A stretch of 64,000 nt of DNA, taken from positions 1-64,000 of IMG/VR virus record IMGVR_UViG_3300018083_000446; one strand, given 5' to 3'. Every line of letters starts with the position of its first letter. Position 1 is the stretch's first letter. Made by a program: the position numbers and the translations under genes. A model generated the notes under the pieces. That model did no database searches. It was given only the letters and a program-made list of their open reading frames with translations, and was not told where the DNA came from. Below, in pieces: positions 9,534-46,339 of this stretch. Source of the DNA: a virus.

Positions 9534-9822
9534 TGCCGTTCTCCTCGTATAGAGTGATGATCGTTTCAGCGTCTACGCGGAGCGCAGCCATAAGGGCAGC
9601 GTGAATTTCAGGCCGGCGGGCCCTGGCATCCCCACGTCGAATGATCCCTCGATTGAACAGTTCGTTCTGTAAGCGCGTAGTGACCTCCTCGCTCAACCCA
9701 AGGCTAGAGATGTCGGGAGGCCCTAGCAGGATACCCTGCCCCCAAGACTTTTCAGGTGCGCCGTCAGGGACGTGGACTAGGGACTTACGACCCACTCCAT
9801 CGACGTGCGTAACAGTCATCAT
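9526..9822 (-). CDS. Head-tail connector region protein, function unknown
   Basis: 98 residues. The start (ATGATG at 9822) overlaps the end of the 9819-11066 gene, and the end overlaps the tail tube start by 8 bases, so it is translationally coupled on both sides. The middle is helical (EEVTTRLQNELFNRG) with a basic RRGDARARR patch. Its place between a connector-like gene and the tube gene suggests a head completion or tail terminator role, but no family was recognised. Confidence 0.7.
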   Translation of the reverse strand: MMTVTHVDGVGRKSLVHVPDGAPEKSWGQGILLGPPDISSLGLSEEVTTRLQNELFNRGIIRRGDARARRPEIHAALMAALRVDAETIITLYEENGNA

Positions 9823-11066
9823 GCTCCTACGGAATCCCCCAATGCTTCGTTTCGTATCATTCGCCAGGCGTGCATTGCACCGCGTGTGGTGCCCAATGGA
9901 TTGTCTAACATCCTTTCAGTCACCCGATAGGATGTTCCGCCTGCTGCACTGGCGGAAGACTCCGACATATCCACACGCCAATAGTTCGAGATGTTCTCGA
10001 TGTTCCTGCAGCCACAGAATGGCCGTTCCAGGATCGACGCTGCGAACACAGCGATGGCACGCTCCCAACGAGGGTCCATCTCGTGTGATGGTCGCTTACG
10101 CGTCTGATCTCGATAGCCGGCTCGATACCAGAATCTACCGCGATCGGGTTGGCGCGCTTGAGCATACGACGTGTATTCATAGGAACCAGTCACCCCGTTC
10201 CACATAGCTGGTTGGCCGCTAATCAACCCCAGGCGATAGTCGCGTACGACTGAACACCCGAATTGAGCACCCAACCAGCACGTGGGGCACGCTTCAGTAC
10301 CGCACCCACACGAACCCCATTGGTTCTCCCACAAGAATTGTATCTGTTGACTGGGGTCGATGAACACTCGATACACGTCTACCGCGCTAACGAAGTTGGC
10401 GTTGTCAGAGCCGTCGATAGCACGTGTGGAATCCAAACGGTCCATCAAGGCTGGTATTACGAGCTGTTCACGGCGTGCTGTAATTGTAGCGAACCCGCTA
10501 GTGAACGTCACTGTTATCGGGCGGATTTCCCATTCGGGTTCACCGCCTTCGCCAGCGAAATATACACAGATTTCATCCGCATTTAGGAGTTGTGTTGCTA
10601 CGGTGATGGTAGCGGTTTCGGGGTATCCATCAGCGTCTTCGTCCGTGTACACCACAGGAGCACTGAGTGTTAGAACGGTCTTGCCTTCGATGCCGCCTGA
10701 CACCACATGGCCGTAGTCTAGTTTCACGGCCACTCCCAAACCATTGGGGGTGAACATACGTACACGGCTGAAATCCCGCGTTGAAGGACGAACGATGTTG
10801 TGTCGTTCGTCCTTCTCAAACGTGGGCAGTGGCTTGAACCCCAACCATTGCGTTATGCGTGTTTCGGCTTCCGCGATTGCAGCGGCAATAGACTCACGCG
10901 AAACACCGTCTGTCACTTGCCAATCGTGTTGCATCAACGGTTGGCCGCATGTCGTGGTAGGTGCGAGGGTTTCGTGGTAAACCCCGTTGAAGTGTAGCGG
11001 GTGCGCGCCCATGATGCGCGCAAACCGATCTAACGACAACAGGGTTCTAGCGTCGGCGCGGGCCAT
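9819..11066 (-). CDS. Probable head-tail connector/adaptor protein with a cysteine cluster
   Basis: 415 residues from ATG 11066 (MARADARTLL); that start overlaps the upstream gene by 20 bases. The protein is largely beta, with a region around residue 270-285 of closely spaced cysteines (SCGCGTEACPTCW) and a later CGC motif, suggesting a metal site. Helical C-terminal third (DPRWERAIAVFAASILERPF). Lies between a DUF1360-like membrane protein and the small 9526-9822 gene, where actinophages keep neck proteins. Family not recognised, so the role is from context. Confidence 0.65.
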   Translation of the reverse strand: MARADARTLLSLDRFARIMGAHPLHFNGVYHETLAPTTTCGQPLMQHDWQVTDGVSRESIAAAIAEAETRITQWLGFKPLPTFEKDERHNIVRPSTRDFSRVRMFTPNGLGVAVKLDYGHVVSGGIEGKTVLTLSAPVVYTDEDADGYPETATITVATQLLNADEICVYFAGEGGEPEWEIRPITVTFTSGFATITARREQLVIPALMDRLDSTRAIDGSDNANFVSAVDVYRVFIDPSQQIQFLWENQWGSCGCGTEACPTCWLGAQFGCSVVRDYRLGLISGQPAMWNGVTGSYEYTSYAQARQPDRGRFWYRAGYRDQTRKRPSHEMDPRWERAIAVFAASILERPFCGCRNIENISNYWRVDMSESSASAAGGTSYRVTERMLDNPLGTTRGAMHAWRMIRNEALGDSVGA

Positions 11067-11382
11067 TCTTGTATACCTTCTCAGACCATATGGCGAATGC
11101 GCTAGTAGCCAACCATGCAACCACAAGCCACACAGGTGTCAGCACCAACAGCAGGAGGATCAAGGCAGTCCAAATGCTCAAGCACAGAAAGCATTCAAAG
11201 ATGTTGCCATCCGGGTGTGCGATCGGTTGATCGTCTTCGTGTTTCACACCGGTCATCTCACGCAAGCGCACGATGATCTTGAAAGGGCCGGCTTCATACA
11301 TCAGGAGGTGTGTCAACCGCCATGTTGCTGCGGCTAACATCACTGCCATCAGCCAGTTGTCCGGCCTAGCGATTTCAATCAA
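11047..11382 (-). CDS. DUF1360-like membrane protein
   Basis: 111 residues with TTG as likely start (11382). Three hydrophobic stretches: about 9-28 (WLMAVMLAAATWRLTHLL), about 65-85, and about 85-102. The TWRLTHLLMYEAGPFKI motif and the FECFLCLSIW cysteine motif are those of the DUF1360 family found in sporulating bacteria and in many phages. Function unknown. A near-consensus promoter (11401-11429) lies immediately upstream, so this gene appears to lead a separate transcript of connector and tail genes. Confidence 0.75.
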   Translation of the reverse strand: MIEIARPDNWLMAVMLAAATWRLTHLLMYEAGPFKIIVRLREMTGVKHEDDQPIAHPDGNIFECFLCLSIWTALILLLLVLTPVWLVVAWLATSAFAIWSEKVYKNGPRRR

Positions 11383-11400: not shown

Positions 11401-11429
11401 ATTATACCAGAGTCGGCCAATCGTGTCAA
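11401..11429 (-). promoter_or_regulatory. Sigma70-type promoter in the late operon
   Basis: On the minus strand: TTGACA (11429-11424), a 17-base spacer, TATAAT (11406-11401). Both hexamers match consensus exactly. The 10-mer CTTGACACGA that starts here also occurs at the promoters at 38109 and 47973. It lies in the 73-base gap between the glycosyltransferase block and the DUF1360-like gene and would start transcription of the connector-tail part of the operon. Confidence 0.75.
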
Positions 11430-11455: not shown

Positions 11456-11773
11456 CTAGCGCGGAGGGCCCGCAGCCGCTAGCGCAGGTGATGCTTCTGT
11501 GCTGGCGTAGAGTCGAAACTCCTCTCGGTTCAGGAAGTGGTCAACATCGTCCTTGTACACCCAACGTACCTTGTGGTCAGGGTCTGACCCGAAACGATAG
11601 CGCGCACCGGTCTTCATACCAGTGTATGAAATGGGAGCGGCTGCGTCGCCAACGTATTCGATCAAAACAGCCCCGTCCTGCTGTGACGGAGTGGAAGGGT
11701 TCATCGCTTGAGCGTAGACATCGAATGAAGGTAGCGACGGAGCTCCACCACCACCAGAACAACCACAGGGCAT
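11456..11773 (-). CDS. C-terminal domain of the glycosyltransferase fusion with its own start signal
   Basis: In frame with the large glycosyltransferase gene, codon 772 is an ATG (11773-11771) preceded on the minus strand by GGGAGGAAAGA, an ideal ribosome binding site. The 105 residues that follow begin with a Cys/Gly motif (MPCGCSGGGG) and contain YTGMKTGARYRFG and a WVYKDDVDHFL segment, a compact small domain resembling stand-alone phage proteins encoded near head-tail genes. It may be made both as the tail of the fusion and as a separate protein, or the fusion may be a recent loss of a stop codon. Confidence 0.5.
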   Translation of the reverse strand: MPCGCSGGGGAPSLPSFDVYAQAMNPSTPSQQDGAVLIEYVGDAAAPISYTGMKTGARYRFGSDPDHKVRWVYKDDVDHFLNREEFRLYASTEASPALAAAGPPR

Positions 11774-14086
11774 TCTTTCCTCCCGAGTAATGTATTTCGA
11801 CCAGCGCTTGAAGATCTCTTCCTTTAGTGTCTCACGTTCCGAAAAGCCTTCTTCACGCCTTCGTCCCGTATCCATCCTGTAATGAAAGAGAGGCACAGCG
11901 AGTCTAGTGCCACAATAATCCGCCGCCACAACTTTGAGTGCGAAGTCCCAATCTTCCCACGCAGGAAGCTCTTCATCGAACCCTCCTACTTTTTCCCAGA
12001 CTGCACGCGGGTACATACAAGTGACAGGCCAAGGAAGTTGGCGGAGTACACTATCACATCCGTCCCACTCAGGGGCGTGATGGACTTCGCCGGTGTCGTG
12101 TCGGTACCAGTCGGTGTATACGAACCCGCCCACGCGATGTTGTTCGACATACATGAGCTCGAGAGCTTCGGGTTGGAAGTAGTCGTCCGCGTCAAGGAAA
12201 ACGAACGTTTCGCCTCTAGCAGCAGCCATCCCGAAGTTGCGAGCAGCACCAGCACCGATAGCGCCGGTAGTGTGGACAACATGTGCCCAAGCAGGAAGCC
12301 CAGGCAAAGGGCCACCAGTGTCGTTGACAACAATCGCTTCCCACCAGCGGAACGTTTGAGATCGTACTGAGTCGAGCGCGTCGAGTACATAGCGTTCATG
12401 GCCTGGTCCCACCGGTATGATAACCGAGACTAAACTGAATTCGTGCATCGGGATGATTGGGTCGGTTCGTTCGTCGTCCACAGGTGCTAGCCATGGAGTT
12501 AGATCGGTCTGCTTTCCCCACGGGTACCATTGGTGCCAACCCCAATCTTCCTGGGTGTTGGACATTGAGTCGGGGCGATTACGATACCTGAGGACGACTG
12601 CGTCTGTCACACGCTTCGCATTGGCTCCGAACGAGGTCGCTCGACACCAAAAGTCCGCGTCTTCCGCAGTCGGACACCGGCGGCGGTACCCACCAACTCT
12701 CTGCCATATGGAACGACGATACATCGACGTGGAACAGATCTGGTTCTGGTGTTTCATCTGGCGGCGATACTCGAACTCGGGTGGCCATGGTGACTTCCAT
12801 TCCTCTCCACTAGGCTCGATCACCGACATTGCACCGTACGCTATGTGGATAGAACGATCACGGTCCAACGCATTCGACAACACGTGCAGCACGTTGGACC
12901 CGAGCATGTTATCAGAGTCTAGTGGGACGATGTATTTGCCACGTGCGGCTGATATGCCAGCGTTCAAGGTCTCTGCTAGGTAGAGGTTCCCAGGGTTGGT
13001 GATGATGCGTACACGAGGGTTGTCTCCAGCAACCTCTCGAACGATCTGGATAGACCGGTCAGTAGATGCATCGTCAACAACGACGAGTTCCCAATCCGCT
13101 TGAGGCTGGTCCAACACCGATTTCACAGAGTCAGCGATGTACGCTTCCATGTTGTGGACAGGCATCACGACGCTGATCTTAGGGCCCGTGTGTGGTTCGA
13201 GTAGTGAACGATACAGATCGTGGTAACGACGTATCGCCACTTCCCACGTGAAGTTACGCAACACATGAGCGCGAGCCGCAGCCCCTAACCGCCTACGATG
13301 TTTGAAACAGTACTCGAGCCCCTCTACCAACGAAGCGTAGTCGTTAGCAGGCGCCAACCAGCCTGTCTCTTTGTGGATCACGATCTCGTTTTGACCGCCC
13401 CAAGCCCATCCTAGGATCGGCACGCCAGCTGCCATTGCTTCTAGCGTACCTATCCCAAACGTCTCCCGAGTGGTGCACAAGTACACACCAGCGTTCTGAA
13501 TGTAGGCCTTGTGCTCTCCGAGGCTGGACACACCAACAGCTTCGACGTTGTCAGCAGGTGGCATACCCCAGTGGACTGTCGAGATGAACTTACGATTGGG
13601 GGCCAACTTGGACAGTTCCCACAATGGAGTAGGATCACATATCGGGTCGACTCGAGTTTTGTTCCAGAGCACGTACCCTTTGTTGGCGACTGGCTCCCAC
13701 GCTGTGGGGTCTATGCCGTGGTACAACACTTGAGCGTTGATGTTAGTCCCTCGAGCGATGGCTTGCGCAACCCACTTGGACGGAGCTGTCACAACGTCGG
13801 CTGCACGCATAGCCTTGATAACGTCGCGGTTCATCTTGAGGGCCCATTTCGGCCACTCGAACCCGTACCAGTACAACCCGTGGCAATGCGACACCACAGG
13901 TATTGTAGCGTCTGCATCGGCTGCCACACCGGCGTGTGTGGCGACGAGGTCGGCTGCGCCCGGCTCATCCACGATCTCCCACCCCATTGTGGGCAACCAT
14001 TGGTTCTGAGCTTCGACGACTCGCCTTATACCACCGTCGCCACGATCCTCGCCAATGAACCGAGGGCCAATAAACAGTTTAGCCAT
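11456..14086 (-). CDS. Three-domain glycosyltransferase (GT4 + GT2 + GT2) with small C-terminal domain
   Basis: 876 residues. Residues 1-about 290 are a GT-B (GT4-like) transferase with the retaining-enzyme motif FGIGTLEAMAAGVPILG. Residues about 300-530 are a GT-A/GT2 domain (ISVVMPVHNMEAYI, VVVDDAST, and DSDNM as the DxD-type metal site). Residues about 555-770 are a second GT2 domain (VSVIIPVGPGHERY, LDADDYF). A small unrelated domain follows (residue 772 on). Such a protein could add several sugars in series. It sits last in a run of seven carbohydrate genes with 4-8 base overlaps, inside the virion gene operon, so the acceptor may be a phage structural protein; that is inference. Confidence 0.85.
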   Translation of the reverse strand: MAKLFIGPRFIGEDRGDGGIRRVVEAQNQWLPTMGWEIVDEPGAADLVATHAGVAADADATIPVVSHCHGLYWYGFEWPKWALKMNRDVIKAMRAADVVTAPSKWVAQAIARGTNINAQVLYHGIDPTAWEPVANKGYVLWNKTRVDPICDPTPLWELSKLAPNRKFISTVHWGMPPADNVEAVGVSSLGEHKAYIQNAGVYLCTTRETFGIGTLEAMAAGVPILGWAWGGQNEIVIHKETGWLAPANDYASLVEGLEYCFKHRRRLGAAARAHVLRNFTWEVAIRRYHDLYRSLLEPHTGPKISVVMPVHNMEAYIADSVKSVLDQPQADWELVVVDDASTDRSIQIVREVAGDNPRVRIITNPGNLYLAETLNAGISAARGKYIVPLDSDNMLGSNVLHVLSNALDRDRSIHIAYGAMSVIEPSGEEWKSPWPPEFEYRRQMKHQNQICSTSMYRRSIWQRVGGYRRRCPTAEDADFWCRATSFGANAKRVTDAVVLRYRNRPDSMSNTQEDWGWHQWYPWGKQTDLTPWLAPVDDERTDPIIPMHEFSLVSVIIPVGPGHERYVLDALDSVRSQTFRWWEAIVVNDTGGPLPGLPAWAHVVHTTGAIGAGAARNFGMAAARGETFVFLDADDYFQPEALELMYVEQHRVGGFVYTDWYRHDTGEVHHAPEWDGCDSVLRQLPWPVTCMYPRAVWEKVGGFDEELPAWEDWDFALKVVAADYCGTRLAVPLFHYRMDTGRRREEGFSERETLKEEIFKRWSKYITREERMPCGCSGGGGAPSLPSFDVYAQAMNPSTPSQQDGAVLIEYVGDAAAPISYTGMKTGARYRFGSDPDHKVRWVYKDDVDHFLNREEFRLYASTEASPALAAAGPPR

Positions 14087-14546
14087 TCACATACACCTGC
14101 ACGTATCCTGGCAACGACCCCGCGACATTGGTCCAAGACCTTTGCAGGTCATTGGTCTTGTCCTCATCGAAGCGGAGTTTGCCACACACTAGTTCACCTT
14201 TTCCAAATGGAAAAGCTCGCGCAACTACGTAGTGCCCTTCGAGCGCGACGTAAGGTGCCGCGTCCAACGGACTGTGGATAGACGTGACCAGATCGAACTG
14301 GCCTATAATTTCACCAATGATTAACCGTGCATACAGCCTCGCATCTCGTTTTACGTCTGGATCGAATGTTTGGCCAATGGAGGGTTTACAACCGAACATG
14401 CGTGCGGCTCGCACCATGTATCCGTTGTGGCATGCTAGGTCGAGGTACGAGCGTGGGATACCCAGGCATGCAAACATGGCATGCATGGCACGCTCACTAG
14501 CCTCGCGCACTTCAGTAGACGGGTCGATCACCGACTTCGTACTCAC
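14079..14546 (-). CDS. SAM-dependent methyltransferase-like protein
   Basis: 155 residues. Motif I-like YLDLACHNGYMVRAARMFG (about 38-56) followed by a DPDV segment and FDLVTS, an arrangement of class I methyltransferases, but shorter than most. The start overlaps the next glycosyltransferase by 35 bases. One copy of the 16-bp palindrome lies inside the coding sequence (14199-14214) and encodes AFPFGKGE in frame. Possible sugar O-methyltransferase given its neighbours; the catalytic assignment is tentative. Confidence 0.6.
   Translation of the reverse strand: MSTKSVIDPSTEVREASERAMHAMFACLGIPRSYLDLACHNGYMVRAARMFGCKPSIGQTFDPDVKRDARLYARLIIGEIIGQFDLVTSIHSPLDAAPYVALEGHYVVARAFPFGKGELVCGKLRFDEDKTNDLQRSWTNVAGSLPGYVQVYVNG
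14199..14214. repeat. Palindromic element, copy 2 (inside a coding region)
   Basis: TTTTCCAAATGGAAAA, here read through as part of the methyltransferase-like gene. This is the only copy that is clearly within a gene. Confidence 0.9.
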
Positions 14547-15183
14547 CTATGTGCTCCCAAGGCCCCACTAGATTCAACGCTGCAGCGCGTAGCCCATTGT
14601 GCATGTTGCAACGATCAGAGTAGTCGCGTTCACAGACGTACGCATCCACCCCTTCAAGGAACGGACCGACCTTTTCGTAGAACCGCTTCGACGCCAGGAA
14701 CGGACGCGTCCCGAATACGAACCCACTCCCGAACTCTAGGTGGAGCCACCACCCAGGTCCAACCGTGAACTTGGTGAAACACGGTAGGTTAGGGTGTATC
14801 GGTCCTAGACGTACGAAGTCGTATTCTTCTTCGCGTATCAACCAGATTGCTTTATCGAGATTGATTGAGCCTCGATCATACGAATCTTGGAGTTCCCAAT
14901 CGTCAGTAGTGTACAGCCAAAGTTCGTTGTGCGCCACTCTAGCCAACGCTCGATTGAGGGATGCCCCAATGCCACCGTGCGGCCCGGTTACGATTGAAAC
15001 GTCCTCGCCGGGGAAATGCGTGATGTTAGGCGTCACAGGCGATCCATCGTCCGCTATGATGTATCGAATGGTCTCCGTGCGACATTTGAGGTTCTCCACC
15101 AACGCATCTAGGCAAGTCTGGGCGTAGGCGTGGCGTGGAGCGCTGGGTTCGGGGTTGTACGTAGTCATGACCACCGCTACCAT
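14512..15183 (-). CDS. GT2-family glycosyltransferase
   Basis: 223 residues with VAVVMTTYNPEP at the N-terminus, a nucleotide-binding YIIADDGSP and LWLYTTDDWEL in place of a canonical DxD, all features of GT-A fold family 2 enzymes. Short for the family; lacks membrane segments, so it is cytoplasmic. Its start overlaps the end of the 15177-15878 gene. Third of four glycosyltransferase genes in a row (reading 5' to 3' on the minus strand). Donor and acceptor cannot be read from sequence. Confidence 0.8.
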   Translation of the reverse strand: MVAVVMTTYNPEPSAPRHAYAQTCLDALVENLKCRTETIRYIIADDGSPVTPNITHFPGEDVSIVTGPHGGIGASLNRALARVAHNELWLYTTDDWELQDSYDRGSINLDKAIWLIREEEYDFVRLGPIHPNLPCFTKFTVGPGWWLHLEFGSGFVFGTRPFLASKRFYEKVGPFLEGVDAYVCERDYSDRCNMHNGLRAAALNLVGPWEHIGEYEVGDRPVY

Positions 15184-15878
15184 GATCGTTCGGCTCCTAT
15201 GTGCACGAACAGATCACCGTAGGGTTTGACTTCTTGTACGGGCCAGATCACGCCTTGACGCGCTTCAGAAATGTGCGCCACGGCGAACTCGGTCTGGCCT
15301 GGTTCGAGCCCCTCAGGCCAAGGACCCACGCTTCTCTCCCAACCCACTGTCTCGATCCTGGGGTGGCCAGAAAAAACGTGAGGTTCAGCTGATGATGGAT
15401 CGAGTCGTAACCATAGACGACCGTGGCTGGAGGCGAATTCACCGCGGAGTGGCTGAGTGAAACCCAAGTATCCCAACCGCATGCAGCCAGCGCCGAGTTC
15501 GTTAAGCGCTCCGATGAAGAGGTCAAGGTCGAGCTCACGTGTCAACTCCCAATCATCTTCCAGAACCAGAACATGGCTGGCAAAGTTGTGTACTAGCTGT
15601 GTCGCCAAGTTGTAGTTCGCCCCATAGCCTGAACGACGTGAATTCGATGTGGTCACTAGCTCGAGCGGGATGGGCGACGTGTCGGTGATCTCGTGGAGCG
15701 TTTGAATGTACTCGTCCGTATCGCCGTCACTGGCAATGTGCACGGACAGCGCTCCGCTCGTGCGCACGTGTGCCAACGCAGACGTGAGCGTCGTTTTGGC
15801 ATACTCGAGGCGCCCGTACGTCAACAACATGATGCACACGTTACTCATTGGGGTCCTCTTGACGAGGCACCCATTCAC
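15177..15878 (-). CDS. GT2-like glycosyltransferase
   Basis: 233 residues. The N-terminus NVCIMLLTYGRLEYAKTTL and the motif VLVLEDDWELT (an acidic metal-binding motif) mark a GT-A fold. The preferred start is uncertain: an internal Met (MSNVCIM) some 10 codons in, close to the end of the preceding gene, may be the true one. Overlaps both neighbours, so it belongs to the same coupled set. Acceptor unknown. Confidence 0.75.
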   Translation of the reverse strand: MNGCLVKRTPMSNVCIMLLTYGRLEYAKTTLTSALAHVRTSGALSVHIASDGDTDEYIQTLHEITDTSPIPLELVTTSNSRRSGYGANYNLATQLVHNFASHVLVLEDDWELTRELDLDLFIGALNELGAGCMRLGYLGFTQPLRGEFASSHGRLWLRLDPSSAEPHVFSGHPRIETVGWERSVGPWPEGLEPGQTEFAVAHISEARQGVIWPVQEVKPYGDLFVHIGAERSW

Positions 15879-16533
15879 GTGTTACGAGATCACGTGTCTC
15901 CAGGATAACCCCTTGCCACGATGCCTTCGAGGCCGTATCGGCTTCAGCGTGACGACGGTAGTTGTAGAGTGGAGCGCCGTTGGCAACTGGCCAGTGACGA
16001 CCTGCACGAGGGTAATTCCCGATGATGATCGAAAGGAGTGCGGCATCCGGAGCACCCGACGCTGATTGAACTGGAAAACCACCCGTTCGTCGCCACAACG
16101 ACTTAGTAACCATTGCCGCATTACAGGCGAGCTCCTGGGTCTCACCGGTGTCCGAATAACGAACACCCACGTAGTAGTAACCGTACGGATCGCCTTGACG
16201 CGCTTGGTATTCCTTGACGCACTCTTCGATACAAGTAGGCTCGAGCCAATCATCCGACCCCAGCATAAAAACGAGTTCGCTCGGCGCAACCGCGACACCG
16301 ATGTTGAATGCATGTGCTACCCCCAGGTACCAAGGGCTCTTCCACACAGAGTACGCCAGGTCACTGGGGACCATGTGTAGGCTGACATCAGCCATGTCGT
16401 CTACGATCTGGAGATGGATACCCCCATGCGACAGATGGTTCCACGTTTGGTCGCTCACTGAACGGATGCACTCGTCCAACCACCTACGATTAGACGGGTT
16501 AGGGCCGACAGGGATCGTAACGGTCACCATCAT
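15841..16533 (-). CDS. GT2-family glycosyltransferase
   Basis: 230 residues starting MMVTVTIPVGPNPSN, then LQIVDDMAD and FMLGSDDWLEPTC, the classic GT2 donor-binding and DxD-type motifs. Start ATG overlaps the stop of the reductase gene by 4 bases. It would transfer a sugar from a nucleotide donor, perhaps the deoxy sugar made by the two upstream short-chain dehydrogenases. Confidence 0.82.
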   Translation of the reverse strand: MMVTVTIPVGPNPSNRRWLDECIRSVSDQTWNHLSHGGIHLQIVDDMADVSLHMVPSDLAYSVWKSPWYLGVAHAFNIGVAVAPSELVFMLGSDDWLEPTCIEECVKEYQARQGDPYGYYYVGVRYSDTGETQELACNAAMVTKSLWRRTGGFPVQSASGAPDAALLSIIIGNYPRAGRHWPVANGAPLYNYRRHAEADTASKASWQGVILETRDLVTREWVPRQEDPNE

Positions 16534-17336
16534 ACCGTAATTGGTTCTCGATCGTAGGCTTCGACCAACCGCGTGAGGTCGCGCAGCAGACTAACCGTCG
16601 GTTTGAGGCCTCGATACACTATAGGTTCGTCCACTGGAACGATGTTGATATCCTTGGCGAACGCATCCTTGAGGTCCAGTAGCAGTTGGTACTTCGTCGT
16701 GACGGGCGCTGCCACGTGGTACAGGCTAGGGCTCATGTGGAACATCTTGATGAGCATATCTGCCACATCGTAGACCGTACTACCCGCCCAATACGCCTGC
16801 GTGTAACCTTCGATGGTGGCACCGGCTGGTTGATCCAGGAACCACCGTAGCAACCCGTGCTGCAACCCGATGAACGACGTACGAACGATAACGGTATCAG
16901 GGACTTCACCCATCACTTTGCTACGCCCGTAGAGGTTGATCGGGTCTGTACGATCGAGTATGCTTCGCAACCCAGGTGCGTACCCGCTGAACACGCAGTC
17001 AGTAGATACCAGGATCACTTTAGAAGCGTGGAACACGTCCTTCACAACCCACGGCCCGAGCGCGTTGGCACGCACCATATCGGAAGGCATGTGCAACCCT
17101 GTCATGTGATGCGGCGTAAGGCCTGCGCAATTCACGACGACGTGAGGGTGGATAGCACCTTCTACCTTACGCATGGCGTCCCAGTCGGAGATATCATGCT
17201 CCGAACCTGTTACCCACGTCTGGTACTTGGCTAGGCGCGCCGCTGTCGCAACAGCACGCCCGAGCATACCACGCCCGCCTAACACCAACACTCGACCCTT
17301 GAAACCTTCGGGTTCTTTGAGTTCGACTTCAGACAC
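16530..17336 (-). CDS. NAD(P)-dependent nucleotide-sugar reductase (RmlD/CapF-like SDR)
   Basis: 268 residues. Rossmann motif LVLGGRGMLGRAVATAA (about 16-32), NCAGLTPHH, the STDCVFSG serine motif and the YGRSKVMGE Tyr-x3-Lys catalytic pair, in the order seen in dTDP-4-dehydrorhamnose reductases and related extended SDRs. It follows a 4,6-dehydratase-like gene with an 8-base overlap, so together they could convert a 4-keto-6-deoxy intermediate to a deoxy sugar nucleotide. Which sugar is made is not decided by sequence. Confidence 0.82.
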   Translation of the reverse strand: MSEVELKEPEGFKGRVLVLGGRGMLGRAVATAARLAKYQTWVTGSEHDISDWDAMRKVEGAIHPHVVVNCAGLTPHHMTGLHMPSDMVRANALGPWVVKDVFHASKVILVSTDCVFSGYAPGLRSILDRTDPINLYGRSKVMGEVPDTVIVRTSFIGLQHGLLRWFLDQPAGATIEGYTQAYWAGSTVYDVADMLIKMFHMSPSLYHVAAPVTTKYQLLLDLKDAFAKDINIVPVDEPIVYRGLKPTVSLLRDLTRLVEAYDREPITV

Positions 17337-18261
17337 CTTCGCTCTCCCTTATCATCTGGACTAGCTCTGTGCGGGAGAGCGGTTCGGCTAGATTGGAACT
17401 CATCGTAGGTAGTTCGCGTGTGTAGTCCTCGCTACCTGGCGGCATGATGGCGTAGAAGTTGTCGTACGCCTTGGTGCGATAGAGTTCGTAGTGGGTGATG
17501 AGGTCTTCGTGCTGCTTTTCACCAGGACGCTTCCCAACTACTTGGATTCGCCCAGCCTCGAACTCAGACCCACACACTTCCAACACAGCGTGCGCTATGT
17601 CGATCATACGTGCAGCGCGTGGGACAGGGACCGTGATCGAACCTCTAGGGGCGGCGAATGCCTTGACGATGGTATCCACAGCATCGTTGATGCTCATCCA
17701 GAACCTGGTCATGTCAGGGTCTGTTACACGAATGCAACCGTCTTCGCGGAATTGTTCACGCATGACAGGCACGACAGACCCAGTCGAACCAATGACGTTC
17801 CCGTAACGACACGCGTTGTACCCGTACTCAGATACCAGGCGTTCCATGAGCGCCTTGGTGATCCCATACGTGTTGACTGGCTGTGCAGCTTTGTCGGTGG
17901 ATATGGCTACCAAGCTTGCCATGTGTACGGTACGTGCGGCGTGCAACACGGTGCCTGATCCGACGACGTTCACCCTAGCGAACTCGTCTACGTTGAACTC
18001 ACCTTCGGGGATGAACTTCGCAGCTGCAGCGTGAATCACTGCATCGTGGCCTACCATCAGGTTCTGGACACGACCCAAGTCTGTGATATCCCCAAGCACG
18101 AATCGTGCATCGGGGAACTGTTGTGCACAACGGTATTGCTTTTCCTCGTCACGTGAGAGGATAGTGAACTTGGCGGGCCAACCGTCGCGCTGTGCACGAC
18201 GTAGAATCCCGCGACCCAAGTAACCAGTCCCCCCGGTGATCAAGATATTGCCTTTCAGCAT
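17329..18261 (-). CDS. Nucleotide-sugar 4,6-dehydratase (FlaA1/CapE-like SDR)
   Basis: 310 residues from ATG 18261, which overlaps the stop of the repeat-protein gene (TGATG). Motifs in order: ITGGTGYLGRGILRRA (NAD binding), HAAAAKFIPEGE, STDKAAQPVNTYGITKALME (S/T-D-K and YxxxK catalytic residues), RYGNVIGSTGSVVPVM, MTRFWM and GEKQHEDLI. This series is characteristic of UDP-GlcNAc 4,6-dehydratases. It is the first gene of the carbohydrate block, and its coupling to a virion protein gene suggests that glycan synthesis is timed with virion assembly. Confidence 0.87.
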   Translation of the reverse strand: MLKGNILITGGTGYLGRGILRRAQRDGWPAKFTILSRDEEKQYRCAQQFPDARFVLGDITDLGRVQNLMVGHDAVIHAAAAKFIPEGEFNVDEFARVNVVGSGTVLHAARTVHMASLVAISTDKAAQPVNTYGITKALMERLVSEYGYNACRYGNVIGSTGSVVPVMREQFREDGCIRVTDPDMTRFWMSINDAVDTIVKAFAAPRGSITVPVPRAARMIDIAHAVLEVCGSEFEAGRIQVVGKRPGEKQHEDLITHYELYRTKAYDNFYAIMPPGSEDYTRELPTMSSNLAEPLSRTELVQMIRESEGV

Positions 18262-20684
18262 CAAATCTCCCAGGGTTTGACCGCCTCTGCGGGCGGTTCG
18301 CAATTAGAGGGTTCGTACACCCAATCGTTATCACCGTAGTCTCGTGCTACTCCTACAGGCCAGACCACCTCCCTATCTAACGTATTGTCTTGTTCGCACG
18401 CTACGTAGTTCTCGAGCAACGGTGGTGCAATGTAGATCGCACCTAAGTTCTGAGCTCGTGGGCCTAGCGTGCCTCGCAGCGCTGTGGGTGGTGCAGCGAA
18501 TCGTATCTCGGCTCTAGCTCCGACACGACCTACCAATCCACCTTGGCGGAACAACAGACCAGCTACGCTTTGTGCATGCGTGCCTACGCGTGCTACCAAT
18601 ACCGTACGACGAATCGCTTGGTATGTGTTGGTGGCGCGTGGGCCGATTGTTATCGTAGCTGCAAACCCTCGCTGTGGGACCATTACAAAGTTGGGGCGAG
18701 CGCCCGCGCGCCCGACTGCAGGAGCGGATCGTACGCTAAGGATAACGAAGTCCACCCTAGCACCAGCGCGCCCCAACACACTGCCACTAGTAGTGCGCGT
18801 GGCTGCCGTTTGCGATTGAGTACCTACACTAGCCGTTCCAACTACAGTGATCCTCTTGACACCAGCGTTCTGCGCTCGAGAACCAGTGTGGCCAGCAGCA
18901 CTCCTCGACCCGCCAATAGCACCGACCAGCGTACCACGCGTGCCTGCGCTACCAACAGCAGCGCCGCTCGAGTTCTTCGCACCAACGTCCTGTGCGCGGG
19001 ACCCAACACTACCTTGCGCCGTACCAGTTAGGTTAGTGACGGTTTGTGCAGAGTTCTGAGCGTGGGTTCCTACTCGACCGCTAACGCTGGCGGTGGTTGA
19101 ATGCGCCCCAGCCGTGGTGGCTGTGGGGCCACTACGTGCAACGTCAGTCGCAGTGATTGATTTGACGCCTGCGTTCTGTGCACGTGAACCTGCATAGCCA
19201 GCTACGAACTTGGCTCCGCCTTGTGCACCCACCGTGGCAGCATGTGTGCCTACACGACCCACCACTGCAGACGTACGTTGTGCTACGTCTACATGTGTAG
19301 CTCGACTGCCAACGCTGGCGACTTGGGCGGTGGTGATGCGCTTGACGCCTGCATTGGTGGCGCGTGGACCTACACTACCTGCGACAGTCGCAGGAGCTGC
19401 TGCTGGTATAACAAACTGTGCCCACGAAACGAGTATGCGACGCTCGATGACTTCCGCGCCAACGTTGGTAGCACGTGGGCCAACGTGGCCCAAGGATGGT
19501 GGGCGTGTAGCAGCTGCTGGTATCTCTAGTTGTACCCACGATACCTGAGCACGCGCTGTTATACCTTGGCTACCAACGGTTTGAGCGTGCGCTCCCACAC
19601 GCCCCACCACCGTCGATGTGTTGGTACGTGCGACGGCCGTAGTGACCTTAGCGCCTACTGAAGCTACGTGGGGGTTGGCGATCTTCTTGACGCCAACCGC
19701 TACAGCCCTAAAGCCTGTCTTGCCAGCGATCGCACCGCTAACACCAGTGATCTGTGAACCAGCGGTTGTCGCGTGGGTGCCAACTTTAGCTGTGGCCGCT
19801 ACACTAGTGCTATGTACGCCTACGTCAGTCGCACGTGGGCCGACTCGAGCGGCGCCTGTAGCAGTCGCACTACGTACGCCTACATTCTGGGCACGTGGGC
19901 CAGCTGTTCCAACCAGTGGTATACCAGCTGCGGCGGTTGGTACTTGTAGTGATACGTAGGATACTACGGCACGCGGTTGTGGAATAAACCCTACGTTGGT
20001 AGCACGTGGACCAAGTTTGCCAACTATCGCACCCACGCTCTGTTGCATGAACGTGAGGTTAGCGCTGAACTCAACCCACGGGTTTAGGTCAGTAGTTAGC
20101 CCATCAGAATGTGCAAAGTCTGACGCGGCTGAATCACCAAAGCGAAGCGTCGTTGTGAACGAGGTAGACGTACCAGCTTTGCGAAAGCCAATCTCAATAA
20201 CGAGGTAGTCGCCAGCGCTGAACGTACGTGACGTTAGCGTGAGGGTTGTGGCTTCAGCGGCGTCCTGGAAACGCCGTGTCAGAGCAGAAGTGGTAAACTC
20301 AGGTGGGGCAGCAGCTGTGTTATCGCTAGCACTAACAGCTAGCAGGTCATTGATGTGTGTGCCCGCGCTGGAGACCTGGCGTATGTTGATCGCTACGGTC
20401 GAGTTGAGGTTAGCGTTCGACTCTAGACCACGAATGACGCCGGTGACCGTACCACTGATGGTCTGCGCCGCCATCGGTCCAACGATGTACTGGCGCATGA
20501 CCGTCGTCGCCGGGTTGGCGGCTGACGGGCTTGCACTAGCGTGGTTCGCAAGGGTTGTGTTTGCCTTAGTTGTCGAACCAATCTCGCGGTCGAAGCCCGT
20601 TGTAGCTGTGGCTGTCCAACCAGTTCCTACGGCTGGCGAAATCGCCGGCGTGGTGCCGTCTGGTAGGTAGATCCTCGTAGCCAC
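18261..20684 (-). CDS. Large virion protein made of about 24 Gly/Arg/Ala repeats
   Basis: 807 residues. The first about 215 resemble a jelly-roll-like virion domain. Then come about 24 repeats of 18-25 residues with the core G-x-x-G-(P/T/S/A)-(R/H)-A-(T/Q)-x-(V/A)-G. Three repeats carry an insert of the type VSWVQLEIPAAA. A 50-residue, Cys-containing, acidic C-terminus ends the protein. No known fold is recognised for the repeats; they could form a beta-solenoid or fibre shaft, and are rich in Ser and Thr. Single copies of the motif occur in the three other virion proteins at 1-2748, 20689-22674 and 22674-23810. It is directly upstream of the glycan block. Confidence 0.75.
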   Translation of the reverse strand: MATRIYLPDGTTPAISPAVGTGWTATATTGFDREIGSTTKANTTLANHASASPSAANPATTVMRQYIVGPMAAQTISGTVTGVIRGLESNANLNSTVAINIRQVSSAGTHINDLLAVSASDNTAAAPPEFTTSALTRRFQDAAEATTLTLTSRTFSAGDYLVIEIGFRKAGTSTSFTTTLRFGDSAASDFAHSDGLTTDLNPWVEFSANLTFMQQSVGAIVGKLGPRATNVGFIPQPRAVVSYVSLQVPTAAAGIPLVGTAGPRAQNVGVRSATATGAARVGPRATDVGVHSTSVAATAKVGTHATTAGSQITGVSGAIAGKTGFRAVAVGVKKIANPHVASVGAKVTTAVARTNTSTVVGRVGAHAQTVGSQGITARAQVSWVQLEIPAAATRPPSLGHVGPRATNVGAEVIERRILVSWAQFVIPAAAPATVAGSVGPRATNAGVKRITTAQVASVGSRATHVDVAQRTSAVVGRVGTHAATVGAQGGAKFVAGYAGSRAQNAGVKSITATDVARSGPTATTAGAHSTTASVSGRVGTHAQNSAQTVTNLTGTAQGSVGSRAQDVGAKNSSGAAVGSAGTRGTLVGAIGGSRSAAGHTGSRAQNAGVKRITVVGTASVGTQSQTAATRTTSGSVLGRAGARVDFVILSVRSAPAVGRAGARPNFVMVPQRGFAATITIGPRATNTYQAIRRTVLVARVGTHAQSVAGLLFRQGGLVGRVGARAEIRFAAPPTALRGTLGPRAQNLGAIYIAPPLLENYVACEQDNTLDREVVWPVGVARDYGDNDWVYEPSNCEPPAEAVKPWEI
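18438..20030 (-). repeat. Protein-level tandem repeats, about 60-bp period
   Basis: DNA encoding the repeats of the 807-residue protein. The unit is about 54-75 bp; Gly-Pro-Arg-Ala-Thr/Gln-Asn codons recur (for example the sense-strand word GGCCCACGTGC). Units are diverged rather than identical, so this is an old expansion. Confidence 0.8.
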
Positions 20685-20688
20685 GAGG

Positions 20689-22674
20689 TTAGCTCACCTG
20701 GTTAGCAGTGAAGCGCAAGCGCAACGCTGACCAATTAGTGATAGTGCCGCTGACTGTTTGGACCGCATCTTGCCAAGTGTATGGCACGTCAGTGTGCGTC
20801 CACGTTTGGACTACGCTCGCACCTTCCATGAGGTCCACTACCAAGTCGATCTGGTGGCCTGCCAAGTCCTTTTTGTAGCGATAGTAGAGGGTGCGTGTGC
20901 CAGCCACTGGTGCGCTTAGAACACCTAATGCTACTGTCGCAGCATCGTTCACAGGGCTAGCACTAGACTTAATGTAGTCGGCATCACTCGCTGGTAGCTC
21001 GTCTATCGAAGCGTACAGGTTGACGTTGCTATCTAGTTCGTTCGTCCAGCCACCGTCTGTTACATCAGCTACAGGTCGTACGGCTTGACCACCAGTGGTA
21101 ACACCAACGCACTGAGCCCTAGGGCCTACATGGCCAGCCACGGCTGTGCTGTCGCCATCACCCAACACCATCGCTGTACCGGTGTCGTGACGTACACTAA
21201 GTAGTGTGGTACCAGCGTCATACACCCAACCTTCCTGGGTGAGGTCACTACGCTGTGGTAATCGTACACCGTTGGACGTGACACGTGTAGGCGTGAAGGC
21301 TACACGCACACGCTCTATGCCAGGCTCGAACGTGGTATAGCTAACGCCTAGTGTGTTGTACTTGATAGCTTGCACTACTGCAGGTAGCCCACCCAACCCG
21401 CGCACTGAAACTATGTGCGTCTCGCTGGGTGGTGCCCATTCAGGTACGGCTGCGAAGCCGTCCATGTAGTGCTTGATCAGATCGCCGTAGCTATCGGACC
21501 ACCAGTAGTCGTCGGTCGCTGCCAACGCTGCTTTGATACGACCGCCAGTGTTATCTAGTCCGTACGTGACGAAGTTGAACGAACGATAAGCGTCCTCCTT
21601 GAAGGACGACGTACTGGTCTGGGCGTACCACAACGCGTTGATTGACGCCCACCGTGCTGTGTGGCTAGTCAGCCCTGGATCGCCGCAGCACACATCTTGT
21701 TCGTCGATTCGCTGCGCGGAGAAACTAGTACCGGCACTGAAGTTCGTGACCACCCACGTTAGCAACGCTGGCACATGCGTAGTGTAGTTCGGGTCTACAT
21801 CAGCTGGGTTATTACGATTCAGGATATACCGACACGTCTCCATCGGGACGAGTTGATTGTCGTTACCAGCTTCGTCTTGAGAACGATGGATGTCCTCGAA
21901 GTACGCCTGCCACTTGTTCGTGGTCATTGGCCCGTTGGCACCAAGCACCCAATTCCAAGCCGTGTTACGTGCCGTAGTGTAGGCGCTGGTATTGCCAATA
22001 CCCAGACGTATGAGCTCGTCGAAAAGCTCCACACCAGCCACAGCGTTGCAACCGTATTCCTGGTTGACAGCTCCTGTCGGGCCATACACACGGAACGGCC
22101 ACGGTGACTGTGTTGTGCTACCAGTACGTACGTGGGATTGCAATGCATCAGCGCAATCAATCGCAGCGTCACGATAGGTAGTGTCACCGGTCAGCTGCCA
22201 GAACTTGAGGTACGCGTGGCCTAGTTCACCTATCTTGTCTGGCTCGAGCCCGTCGGTATCATCGTCGTCAGCATCGCCATCACCAGTGTACGTGAACGCA
22301 CCAAACTCAGACGTGGCGAACGGAACGTTAGGCCAATCCCATGAACCAGACGTCGTGCCATTGGCGAGCATGTAGTCCAAGCAAGCCTTGACGTGTGATA
22401 TGAGACTGCTATCCCCGGAGAACGCAAGCCACGGTATCAACGAGTCCACGAAGCACGCGTAGGTCATGGCCGGGTTGTGCGACCCGAACTCCGTACCACC
22501 ACTGTCGAAACAACAGTACCTCAAGTACGGCTTGGTACCGCCTACAGTAGGTACGGTCTTGAAGTAGTTCCAAGCGTAGCCGATCAACTGCACGTAGGCA
22601 GTGTTCTGCGGGGTCAACCACGACAGTAGTTTACTGCTACCGTCGAGGACTTCCGTGTGTCCGTTGATCGCCAT
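20689..22674 (-). CDS. Virion protein with six-hairpin-glycosidase-like domain and shared C-terminal module
   Basis: 661 residues. Residues 1-about 430 are helical with repeated aromatic motifs (LGHAYLKFWQLTGDTTYRDAA, EYGCNAVAGVELFDEL, ARWASINALWYAQ) typical of (alpha/alpha)6-barrel glycoside hydrolases and lyases. An Asp-rich loop (DGDADDDDTDG) sits near residue 130. Residues about 510-661 begin with GHVGPRAQCVG and match the C-terminal region of the next gene (both contain DLVVDLMEGASVVQTWTHTD). It may cleave a host surface polysaccharide at adsorption. Its catalytic acid was not identified. Confidence 0.7.
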   Translation of the reverse strand: MAINGHTEVLDGSSKLLSWLTPQNTAYVQLIGYAWNYFKTVPTVGGTKPYLRYCCFDSGGTEFGSHNPAMTYACFVDSLIPWLAFSGDSSLISHVKACLDYMLANGTTSGSWDWPNVPFATSEFGAFTYTGDGDADDDDTDGLEPDKIGELGHAYLKFWQLTGDTTYRDAAIDCADALQSHVRTGSTTQSPWPFRVYGPTGAVNQEYGCNAVAGVELFDELIRLGIGNTSAYTTARNTAWNWVLGANGPMTTNKWQAYFEDIHRSQDEAGNDNQLVPMETCRYILNRNNPADVDPNYTTHVPALLTWVVTNFSAGTSFSAQRIDEQDVCCGDPGLTSHTARWASINALWYAQTSTSSFKEDAYRSFNFVTYGLDNTGGRIKAALAATDDYWWSDSYGDLIKHYMDGFAAVPEWAPPSETHIVSVRGLGGLPAVVQAIKYNTLGVSYTTFEPGIERVRVAFTPTRVTSNGVRLPQRSDLTQEGWVYDAGTTLLSVRHDTGTAMVLGDGDSTAVAGHVGPRAQCVGVTTGGQAVRPVADVTDGGWTNELDSNVNLYASIDELPASDADYIKSSASPVNDAATVALGVLSAPVAGTRTLYYRYKKDLAGHQIDLVVDLMEGASVVQTWTHTDVPYTWQDAVQTVSGTITNWSALRLRFTANQVS

Positions 22675-23810
22675 TAGACCTGGTTAGCTGTGAAGCGTAC
22701 GCGCAAGTTCGAATAGTCGCTGATGGCGTTGGTTATTGTTTGTTCAGCCAGTGTATGAGTCGTGGAAATATCGGTATGGGTCCACGTCTGCACGACGCTA
22801 GCGCCTTCCATCAAATCCACAACCAAGTCCACTTGCGCGCCGCTGATATCCTTCCAATAGCGATAGCGTAGCGTGCGCGTACCGCTAATCGGGGCTGACA
22901 ACGTACCCATCGCCAGAGTGACTGGTGATGAGTTAGGGTCTTGTTCGGAGCGAATGTAGTCAGCATCGTCCGCTATAACTTCATCCACCACTGCAAACAA
23001 GTTCGTGGTAGCGCCGGTCTGCGTAGTCCACGCACCAACGCTAATGTCCGATGTTGGCTGTACAACTTGCCCTTCAGCTTTTGTACCTGCACACTGAGCT
23101 CGAGCACCTACGCTACCTAGCGCCGCGCCTGAAAGGTTTGTGCCACTGGTGCCTTCGAACGCAGCGATAACCATCGCTGTATCGGCCGATATCGTGCCCC
23201 ATACGTGGCCCCGACTTTGTGCCGTCGTCACCGACTGGTTTACTATAGAACCAGCCATGTTGACGGCGCCATTCGTCTCGCGGCTAGCAGCGTTGAATTC
23301 AGCCCACGTACCCTCAGTGCCCGTTTGGTTCAGGTTGATTGTGACGGTGCCACCCAAGTCGATGGAAATGACCGCCATGTACAACGCGTTGACTTTGCCA
23401 GTGTTGTCAACGTTGAGCGAATCGTGCAGAGTTTGAGCAGTCGATGCGTTGTTGTTCGACCCGATCAACGAACTGGCTGTCAACGCATCTTGCACTTCAG
23501 CCAGGAACAACGTGACCCCACCGCTCGTACTAGCCCAAGTTACGTTGACTGAACCAGCCGACAAGTTCTCCTTATAGAACATGCCGGCATTGGCACCAGC
23601 ACCACCATGGCGTCGTGCAATGACCGTGTATGCACCGTGCACGTTGTCCGAGATGGTTAGGCCAGTTTCCTGGCCGCCAGACCCACCAAAGTTCGTTAGC
23701 CCAGCAACTGCCAAACGCCCGGCTGTGTAAGTGATAAAGCCGTTCAGCGTACCACCGGTACCGGTGTCTACAGCGTGCTTAACCGTTTGCGTGACAGTAG
23801 GGGCAGCCAT
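22674..23810 (-). CDS. Virion protein with beta-sandwich N-terminus and shared C-terminal module
   Basis: 378 residues. The N-terminal about 225 are Gly/Thr/Ser-rich beta structure without recognisable motif. From about residue 230 (GSVGARAQCAG) the protein is related to the C-terminus of the 20689-22674 product, including GTRTLRYRYWKD and the MEGASVVQTWTHTD block, so one module has been duplicated or swapped between neighbouring genes. Its start is separated by a single base step from the stop of the 20689 gene's neighbour, indicating coupled translation. Probable appendage or decoration protein. Confidence 0.7.
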   Translation of the reverse strand: MAAPTVTQTVKHAVDTGTGGTLNGFITYTAGRLAVAGLTNFGGSGGQETGLTISDNVHGAYTVIARRHGGAGANAGMFYKENLSAGSVNVTWASTSGGVTLFLAEVQDALTASSLIGSNNNASTAQTLHDSLNVDNTGKVNALYMAVISIDLGGTVTINLNQTGTEGTWAEFNAASRETNGAVNMAGSIVNQSVTTAQSRGHVWGTISADTAMVIAAFEGTSGTNLSGAALGSVGARAQCAGTKAEGQVVQPTSDISVGAWTTQTGATTNLFAVVDEVIADDADYIRSEQDPNSSPVTLAMGTLSAPISGTRTLRYRYWKDISGAQVDLVVDLMEGASVVQTWTHTDISTTHTLAEQTITNAISDYSNLRVRFTANQV

Positions 23811-24212
23811 TTACTCGAGTTCCCCAGAAATGTCTGATGCCTGTATGGTAACACCCAATCGAACCGTCACCCCTTCGGTTTCGACCCACACACGTGCCTG
23901 CATCGCTTGCATCTCCGCGAACGTAGCAGAATCATGTTTTACAGACGGCATAGAGCCGCGTGGGCCTAGTTCGCCAAAGACGATATTTTTAGTGGTGAAC
24001 CATTCTTGGAACGGGCCTGCACCTATACGTATATCGACTCCCCATTGAACGATACGCCCTTGGCCCGCAACTTGGCTCCATGAGTTCGGGTTGCTGGTGG
24101 TGAATACCACGTTGAAGCCGCGCAAGCCATCTGGAATGGCTTGCGCGGTGAACAAACGCCTCGCCCCGCTTGAAACAGGCGTCGGAGCGACCGTACGTGT
24201 GACGATCGCCAT
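23811..24212 (-). CDS. Small virion protein, function unknown
   Basis: 133 residues, mostly beta, with RGFNVVFTTSNPNSWSQVAGQGR and WVETEGVTVRLGVTIQASD. No cysteine. It abuts the 22674-23810 gene without a gap and follows the 24217-24939 gene after 4 bases. Likely a capsid or appendage component from position only. Confidence 0.65.
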   Translation of the reverse strand: MAIVTRTVAPTPVSSGARRLFTAQAIPDGLRGFNVVFTTSNPNSWSQVAGQGRIVQWGVDIRIGAGPFQEWFTTKNIVFGELGPRGSMPSVKHDSATFAEMQAMQARVWVETEGVTVRLGVTIQASDISGELE

Positions 24213-24216
24213 ATGT

Positions 24217-24939
24217 CTACGCGACGGCGCCTAGATCAACCGACCCCGACGACAGAGCGTAGGTGCCCTGACCTGCGAATGTCTCAGGCACACACTTCTG
24301 CGAATAGAACACGAACGGCTGCGTACCGGTCAGGTCTATCGCAGTACCGCCGCTGGTGGTGGCAACGCGGAACGAGTCCGTAGCCAGACCAGTAGCGATC
24401 ACGAAATAGATCGTACCTACGCTGAGGCCCGTAGGCAACGTACCCCAGAACACCACACGGTTGTCAGCGACTAGACCGTGGGCCTTGCTGAAGATATCGT
24501 TGTTGGTGATGTCGGTCGAAGTCTCAGCAGACGAGTACAGCAGAGCACCACCACCTGCGGGCATCATACCACTGAAGTTGCCCGTTGTGATGGCGTCCCA
24601 GAACCCGACCCACGCTACGGTTGTAGACGCTGGCACGTCCCACGTTGGAAGCGTAGCCGCCAACGCTTTTGCACCGCCCGAACTAGCTGCCCACGTGAGG
24701 GCCTTGCGTGCGTAGGCAGGTGAACCACCAGTGACTTCGTTGGTGCCAGTTGTAGAATACGCCGTGTGAAGCGAACCGTGTGTTGCTTCAGTGGCGAACC
24801 CATCTAGTGCGGCGTGCTTGCCATTGTTGGCCATGAAGAACGCCTCGTATGGCCGCAGCAACCGCGCCAAATCGCGCGCTATAGGCGCACGATGCACGAC
24901 ACCACACGGACACAACCGAGGCGCAGGCAAATGAATCAT
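24217..24939 (-). CDS. Probable capsid decoration/minor structural protein
   Basis: 240 residues from ATG 24939, chosen because CTGGAGGAGGAACGC, a very strong ribosome binding site, precedes it. A second possible start (ATG 24834, MANNGKHAAL) begins a region found as stand-alone phage structural proteins (GANEVTGGSPAYARKA-like segment, here GTNEVTGGSPAYARKAL). Residues about 160-215 have the AHGL..V.FWGTLPTGLSVGTIYFV pattern common in phage appendage proteins. The first 35 residues hold a CPCG motif. It lies directly after the major capsid gene and its hairpin. Confidence 0.7.
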   Translation of the reverse strand: MIHLPAPRLCPCGVVHRAPIARDLARLLRPYEAFFMANNGKHAALDGFATEATHGSLHTAYSTTGTNEVTGGSPAYARKALTWAASSGGAKALAATLPTWDVPASTTVAWVGFWDAITTGNFSGMMPAGGGALLYSSAETSTDITNNDIFSKAHGLVADNRVVFWGTLPTGLSVGTIYFVIATGLATDSFRVATTSGGTAIDLTGTQPFVFYSQKCVPETFAGQGTYALSSGSVDLGAVA

Positions 24940-24961
24940 GCGTTCCTCCTCCAGGAGTGAT

Positions 24962-24981
24962 GGGGGTCCCGAAGGACCCCC
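24962..24981 (-). terminator. Stem-loop with UUCG tetraloop after the major capsid gene
   Basis: On the minus strand GGGGGTCC-TTCG-GGACCCCC: an 8-bp perfect stem closed by C(UUCG)G, an exceptionally stable tetraloop. It lies 7 bases past the capsid stop codon and has no U-tract, so it is more likely an mRNA-stabilising 3' structure or a partial attenuator than a strong terminator. Confidence 0.8.
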
Positions 24982-24988
24982 TACACCG

Positions 24989-46056: not shown

Positions 46057-46339
46057 TATGGCCGAAACCGCTAACATCACCGTGTTGTACGACGCTGGCC
46101 CTTCAACCAGGGCTGTGGTCTACATCAATGGTGAACTGCACGAAGCAGCCAACCACACCAACGAGGACGGATTCGTATGGTCCTTGCTCGACCAACTCCA
46201 AGGCAAGATCGTCGGAGAGATCGACACCACCGAATACCTCAAGGCTGACTACTACGACGTCAACGATCGTAACGACTCTTTCCCACCGTTGCTCCATGAC
46301 ATTCCTAAAGACGAATACGAGGACCCGGATAACCTATGA
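46034..46339 (+). CDS. Small acidic protein
   Basis: 101 residues from ATG 46034; ATG 46058, two bases after the previous stop, is an alternative start. Beta N-terminus (NITVLYDAGPSTRAVVYI) and Asp/Tyr-rich end. Unknown. Confidence 0.6.
   Translation: MNTTTEDSMAETANITVLYDAGPSTRAVVYINGELHEAANHTNEDGFVWSLLDQLQGKIVGEIDTTEYLKADYYDVNDRNDSFPPLLHDIPKDEYEDPDNL

Follow-up and report, generated by a model that had tools for sequence, protein, structure and literature searches.

A capsid-linked glycosyltransferase carrying a nested phage module with a predicted internal start in a lineage of uncultured siphoviruses

Introduction

A few mycobacteriophages are known to have glycosylated proteins in their particles, which changes how antibodies recognise them. 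Modification of the capsid and tail tube is established in these phages (Freeman et al. 2023, as cited in PMC11256854 and PMC12619734), and for Che8 and other cluster F1 phages it has been proposed or shown that phage-encoded glycosyltransferases (GTs) modify proteins of the capsid and the tail tube. Here we analyze a block of sugar-synthesis and GT genes in a 64,000-nucleotide stretch of DNA, referred to as the window, which makes up most of the 64,973-base IMG/VR virus record IMGVR_UViG_3300018083_000446. The source is an uncultured tailed phage, and the glycosylation block is a core feature of a large lineage of uncultured siphoviruses.

The block would resemble the mycobacteriophage systems in outline, with phage-encoded GTs and virion proteins as the presumed targets. 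In mycobacteriophage Maravista the GTs are encoded close to the 3' end of the genome, whereas those described here occupy the interval between the major capsid protein (MCP) gene and a connector-position gene in every relative that was checked. Two further differences are the phage module, with a predicted start codon of its own, that is joined to the last GT, and the sugar-synthesis genes found in elaborated members of the lineage. A preliminary description of this DNA had drawn an analogy with actinophages, which found no support, as neither a DNA search nor tblastn with the MCP or TerL detected a cultured relative; GT matches in cultured phages were generic GT2 domains that spanned no more than 57% of the query. 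In a literature search that covered few subscription journals, no description of this arrangement was found, which is no proof of novelty. We think it fairly probable that the block elaborates on an ancestral system for glycosylating the virion, in which the module docks a GT on the head and the virion, probably the capsid, is glycosylated.

Results and Discussion

A GT gene accompanies the capsid gene throughout the lineage

Because a family search with the 490-residue product of the putative capsid gene gave no match, the protein was folded by structure prediction. The AlphaFold2 model, with 32 aligned sequences as input, had a mean predicted local distance difference test (pLDDT) score of 78, and its 50 top Foldseek matches were all capsid or encapsulin shells with the HK97 fold (E to 5.5e-10). 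VIA comparisons gave Z scores of up to 20.5, over 319 aligned residues of a cyanophage capsid, and of 15.5 for HK97 itself. Judged by its modelled structure, this protein is the MCP, and its gene served as the anchor for gene order. The block lies inside the virion operon, as had been proposed, with terL, a portal-position gene, a protease-position gene and the MCP gene upstream and a connector-position gene, a tube-position gene and the tape measure gene downstream (Table 1). The identities of TerL and the tape measure protein were confirmed with PHROGs.

A six-sequence MCP profile retrieved 52 viral loci and 6 loci from metagenome-assembled genomes (MAGs), and profiles of the window genes were run against all open reading frames (ORFs) of these loci. 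Relatives and loci are referred to by L-numbers. Dereplication left 47 MCP clusters, 21 with a full MCP-to-connector interval and 26 with an interval that was cut. Every one of the 21 complete intervals contained a GT, down to approximately 30% capsid identity. A GT4-containing GT was found in 15 of them, a DUF1360 gene in 18 (usually next after the terminal GT), a dehydratase in 9 and an RmlD-like reductase in 4. GT or sugar genes were also visible in 20 of the 26 cut intervals, and the other six stop within or soon after the MCP gene, except L044, which stays open for about 6 kb to the contig end with no GT or sugar gene. A second, independent fetch by GT yielded 52 loci and repeated the order in nearly all of them, with MCP upstream and DUF1360 and connector downstream. 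Relatives occurred on MAG contigs labelled as Chloroflexota groups, Proteobacteria, Gemmatimonadetes and Altiarchaeales, and a host survey matched 2 of 400 genomes from one phylum and 1 of 298 from another, each set including a previously known match.

GT architecture tracks the MCP tree, which was restricted to clusters with a readable terminal GT. One clade carries a single GT2 domain plus the module, others carry two GT2 domains plus the module, and most have the GT4-GT2-GT2 arrangement plus the module. The simplest lineages have the two-domain form of approximately 365 residues, and the remainder of the block is an elaboration of it. It appears that glycosylation is a core trait, passed on vertically, in this diverse uncultured lineage, represented by the 47 capsid clusters.

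This linkage bears on an alternative from the preliminary description, in which the block alters the host envelope to prevent superinfection; such a change could also amount to serotype conversion. In PHROGs, related GTs are annotated as GtrB-like and associated with O-antigen conversion, and the GT2 domains of the block match these entries. A dehydratase and a reductase are also typical of surface polysaccharide loci, and the DUF1360 product encoded beside the terminal GT is a membrane protein. However, the GtrAB system has a membrane-anchored GtrB, whereas the block GTs are multidomain proteins with no predicted transmembrane segment (maximum 19-residue hydropathy ≤1.41 in all). They are encoded in the head operon instead of a conversion cassette, and the membrane gene at the position of a GtrA flippase encodes DUF1360 (PF07098), with no GtrA match. 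No flippase, polymerase or oligosaccharyltransferase was matched among the proteins scanned. The GT is, moreover, strictly linked to the MCP gene and fused to a phage module. An envelope role is disfavoured by these observations and seems unlikely.

We also regard as unlikely the acceptor originally suggested, namely the Ser/Thr-rich repeat protein encoded between the MCP and the block, together with its two upstream relatives. The gene adjoins the block with translational overlap, and its product contains 19.7% Ser plus Thr and repeats a G-x-R/H-A motif approximately 13 times, often at a spacing of about 20 residues. Profile searches, however, found the repeat gene in this window only, and all relatives without it keep the GT and the module. 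A gene that exists only here cannot encode the general acceptor, although the repeat protein may be an additional acceptor in this phage. Profiles of all five genes that separate the MCP from the block matched no other genome among the MCP relatives, and three of them, re-tested on the GT-based fetch, were again confined to the window. The corresponding slot of one relative (L017:13167-14774) holds a pectate-lyase-like/endosialidase-N-terminal protein, so the slot seems open to fibre-like genes in other relatives too.

Table 1. Positions of the block, its nested module and neighbouring features in the window
Feature	Position	Strand	Basis or remark
Terminal GT, 876 residues, GT4-GT2-GT2 plus C-terminal Cys-motif module	11456-14086	minus	Pfam
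Terminal GT, GT4 domain	~13199-14086	minus
Terminal GT, first GT2 domain	~12452-13198	minus
Terminal GT, second GT2 domain	~11777-12451	minus
Nested module, predicted 105-residue free product	11459-11773	minus	In-frame internal ATG 11771-11773 (residue 772), MPCGCSGG...
Internal Shine-Dalgarno sequence, GGAGG	11779-11783	minus	5 nt ahead of internal ATG; -10.3 kcal/mol to anti-Shine-Dalgarno
155-residue protein	14079-14546	minus	No family match; palindrome copy inside
GT2-type glycosyltransferase c	14512-15183	minus	PF00535, E 1.4e-4, just under curated cut-off
GT2-like glycosyltransferase b	15177-15878	minus	Relatives at 47-56% with invariant EDDW
GT2-type glycosyltransferase a	15841-16533	minus	PF00535, E 1.9e-8
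RmlD-like NAD(P) sugar reductase	16530-17336	minus	RmlD PF04321, E 1.7e-18
PseB/FlaA1-like nucleotide-sugar 4,6-dehydratase	17329-18261	minus	Polysacc_synt_2 PF02719, E 2.3e-67
Five genes separating MCP from block	24217-25125, 23811-24212, 22674-23810, 20689-22674, 18261-20684 (repeat protein)	minus
MCP, HK97 fold by model, 490 residues	24989-26461	minus	AlphaFold2, Foldseek and VIA; anchor for conserved gene order
Extended sigma-70 promoter, perfect TTGACA-N17-TATAAT	11401-11429	minus	Only exact match in window
DUF1360 membrane protein	11047-11382	minus	PF07098, E 9.6e-6
Connector-position protein	9819-11126	minus	Named by position only; downstream boundary of interval
Tube-position protein, 500 residues	8031-9533	–	Named by position only; conserved, tail side

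The terminal GT gene contains a module with a predicted internal start

The module reads on from the terminal GT without a stop codon and is fused to it in nearly all relatives. It begins with M-x-C-x-C or M-x-C-C, continues through a variable linker rich in Ala, Pro, Ser and Thr, and ends in a folded domain whose sequence follows the pattern V-x-x-E-Y-x-G ... Y-x-F ... D-V. AlphaFold2 predicted four strands, a helix and a further strand, with pLDDT >80 in the domain. An ATG or TTG codon precedes the Cys motif in all 27 genes first examined, with TTG taking the place of ATG in L013, L019 and L038.

We used the Cys motif rather than the Shine-Dalgarno (SD) sequence to choose internal start codons, and then calculated pairing with the anti-SD. 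The mean over 22 dereplicated genes was -9.8 kcal/mol, while 329 further in-frame ATGs within these genes averaged -3.0 (Mann-Whitney p 8e-14). Shuffles of synonymous codons had a mean of -6.8, and since none of 300 equalled the real sequences (z -6.6), the strength of the internal SD goes beyond what the amino-acid sequence alone would give. The result was replicated with 22 further independent genes from the second fetch (-8.8 versus -3.0, p 1.7e-13, z -5.3), a set from which the motif rule left out six genes, five with Cys directly after Met and one a separate ORF in L125. Control gene starts, for which the best candidate among the first 26 codons was used, scored -9.3 for the MCP, -9.4 for the tube and -7.1 for the connector. 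Within the terminal GT gene of the window, 0.8% of codon positions pair with the anti-SD as strongly as the internal SD does. Given this in-frame start and its strong SD, the terminal GT gene probably encodes two products, the GT with its module and the module alone. The SD strength makes initiation likely, which is distinct from accumulation of the product.

The prevalence of the fusion could also mean that an old gene fusion left the internal start behind as a relic, with the fused protein as the sole product. That explanation is hard to reconcile with an SD held against synonymous drift in two independent gene sets, or with the substitution of TTG for ATG, and we consider it improbable. The module could instead be the acceptor itself, so that the GT is joined to its own substrate and the free module is glycosylated in trans. 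Such an arrangement would suit the composition of the linker and the origin of fused and free modules from one gene, but the linker is short or Ser/Thr-poor in several relatives, and we consider this reading improbable as well.

Departures from the usual layout were seen in a few loci. L036 has a second, separate 76-residue copy of the module after the fused gene. In L125 the GT ends and the domain lies on its own ORF; this region looks partly degraded and could contain a frameshift. A second, different GT of 680 residues (L055:16506-18548) has a C-terminal domain that resembles the nested module and lacks the Cys motif.

A possible route to virion glycosylation

Computation supports the gene content of the block, its linkage to the MCP gene, the GT-module fusion, the internal initiation signal and the conserved catalytic motifs. 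The GTs are phage-encoded, their catalytic motifs are intact, and they are linked to virion genes in 21 of 21 intervals. Our inferences concern the identity of the sugar and of its acceptor, the docking step and the benefit, which might be shielding, stability or host-surface mimicry. The dehydratase and reductase would turn a UDP-sugar into an activated deoxy(amino)sugar, from which the single GT2 enzymes and the GT4-GT2-GT2 protein would assemble a short glycan on one of the virion proteins. Since the enzyme is tied to the gene of the MCP, that protein is the most likely acceptor. The free module, translated alone from the internal start, would be a head-accessory protein, and the fused copy would dock the GT on the assembling head, so that modification of the acceptor would take place at or close to the particle. 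This scheme gives a concrete mechanism by which a glycosyltransferase could be targeted to the virion.

The preliminary description had proposed that phage-encoded enzymes glycosylate the virion. That part gains support from the lineage-wide capsid-gene linkage, the GTs without transmembrane segments, the lack of a flippase match and the GT-module fusion; the Ser/Thr-rich repeat proteins found no support as the general acceptor. A broader version, which we offer tentatively and would not yet bet on, is that capsid glycosylation is a core assembly step throughout the lineage. One gene would supply a head-accessory protein both free and fused to a GT, built into or docked on the head, and lineages would have extended this minimal unit into glycan assembly lines of several enzymes that also synthesise their own sugars. 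Further examples might be found by their genetic marker, a GT followed by M-x-C-x-C with an embedded SD.

Several observations weigh against virion glycosylation by a docked GT. The glycan, the acceptor and the free module are predictions, a GT adjoining the MCP gene need not act on the MCP, and the neighbouring DUF1360 membrane protein could fit an envelope role. Two of the 22 internal starts in the first set (L014 and L032) have an SD weaker than -6. The module is also only weakly related to head-accessory proteins, and its best viral Foldseek matches (E 2.8e-3) are uncharacterised phage proteins. It aligned with the C-terminal domain of lambda gpFI at Z 3.4 over 56 residues, a tie with unrelated chains, and the unrelated GINS B-domains outscored gpFI in Foldseek/VIA comparisons (Z 3-4.5 overall).

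Like the module, lambda gpFI and the product of HCTV-1 gene 113 are small proteins encoded after the MCP, and there may be a weak resemblance in fold. The module differs in its fusion to a GT, and the similarity is too weak to infer homology. Gene 113, which directly follows the HCTV-1 MCP gene, gave a suggestive hhalign alignment and was rejected as a homologue at 4% probability and a hidden Markov model E value of ~1. A match of the module to PDB 9y6s (E 3e-4) was taken as chance, as the only paper naming that entry concerns eukaryotic flagella.

Some phage GTs are known to glycosylate hypermodified phage DNA (as cited in PMC12619734). Such a role is highly improbable here, given that no base-hydroxylating or base-activating enzyme was found among the window proteins scanned and that the GTs are located in the head operon, not beside PolA and the nucleases.

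Enzymes of the block

The sugar-synthesis and GT genes were found where the preliminary description had placed them, comprising a 4,6-dehydratase, an RmlD-like reductase and four GT genes with six GT domains. The reported overlaps were likewise borne out: neighbouring frames overlap by 1 to 38 nucleotides, and the dehydratase ATG, which sits within a longer TTG frame reaching 18303, overlaps the 3' end of the repeat-protein gene.

By sequence, the dehydratase is a member of the PF02719 4,6-dehydratase superfamily, scoring 227.7 bits against a gathering score of 20.2, and its D-K...Y...K residues are invariant across 8 sequences. The fold and catalytic residues are shared with the UDP-GlcNAc 4,6-dehydratases PseB, FlaA1 and FnlA, and PseB (TIGR03589) is its best NCBIfam model. 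However, its score of 211.6 bits falls under the cut-off of 407.75, so it was not assigned as a PseB equivalog; dehydratases of the relatives L004 and L013 reached 274.6 and 286.8 bits. Those of L008 (7005-9077) and L009 (8489-10561) contain an intein of approximately 340 residues at the conserved STDKA site, recognised by TIGR01443, the model for the C-terminal splicing region of inteins. Active sites of functional genes are the usual location of inteins. The RmlD-like reductase has rmlD as its best NCBIfam model, at 68.4 bits and below the cut-off.

The DxD and ED motifs of the terminal GT are invariant in 8 sequences. Glycosyltransferase a has relatives at 37-55% in the corresponding interval of other loci. 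Glycosyltransferase b had no Pfam match; its relatives match the GT family of glycosyltransferase c, and this type often occurs near the terminal GT. The 155-residue protein had been described as methyltransferase-like, a label we dropped. It had no Pfam or PHROG match, and hhalign against methyltransferases from the blocks of relatives returned a local match of 14 residues at 0.2% probability. Its sole relative is in L010 (88%). Genuine methyltransferases are nevertheless frequent in the corresponding interval of relatives: Methyltransf_24 was recognised in 10 of 110 unknown ORFs scanned there, and these intervals also encode DegT aminotransferases and one sulfotransferase. A plus-strand gene elsewhere in the window (46336-47028), with no Pfam match, is 33% identical to a gene inside the L013 glycosylation block (L013 6405-7055).

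Other features of the window

The connector-position protein had no family match and is 30-42% identical in distant relatives. The C-terminal part of the tube-position protein is weakly BNR/YCF48-like, of propeller type; should it be the tail tube protein, such domains would decorate the tube. The sigma-70 promoter lies between the terminal GT and DUF1360 genes, and no perfect match arose in 100 shuffles. It is kept in L010 and was not seen at this position in the other loci. The promoter would allow independent expression of tail-side genes, with the glycosylation block staying on the head transcript.

A putative fibre of 916 residues (1-2748) combines a carbohydrate-binding Malectin domain (E 2e-28) with a weak match to a beta-helix, and 53777-56242 encodes a uracil-DNA glycosylase domain fused to a family A DNA polymerase. 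Seven scattered sites (7786, 14195, 29869, 34920, 41874, 53605 and 58803) carry the near-perfect palindrome AGCTTTTCCAWWTGGAAAAGGT, with 10 strand matches and none expected by chance. The copies are mostly intergenic, one lies within the ORF of the 155-residue protein, and two are conserved in L010. The palindrome may be a repressor operator or another dispersed binding site.

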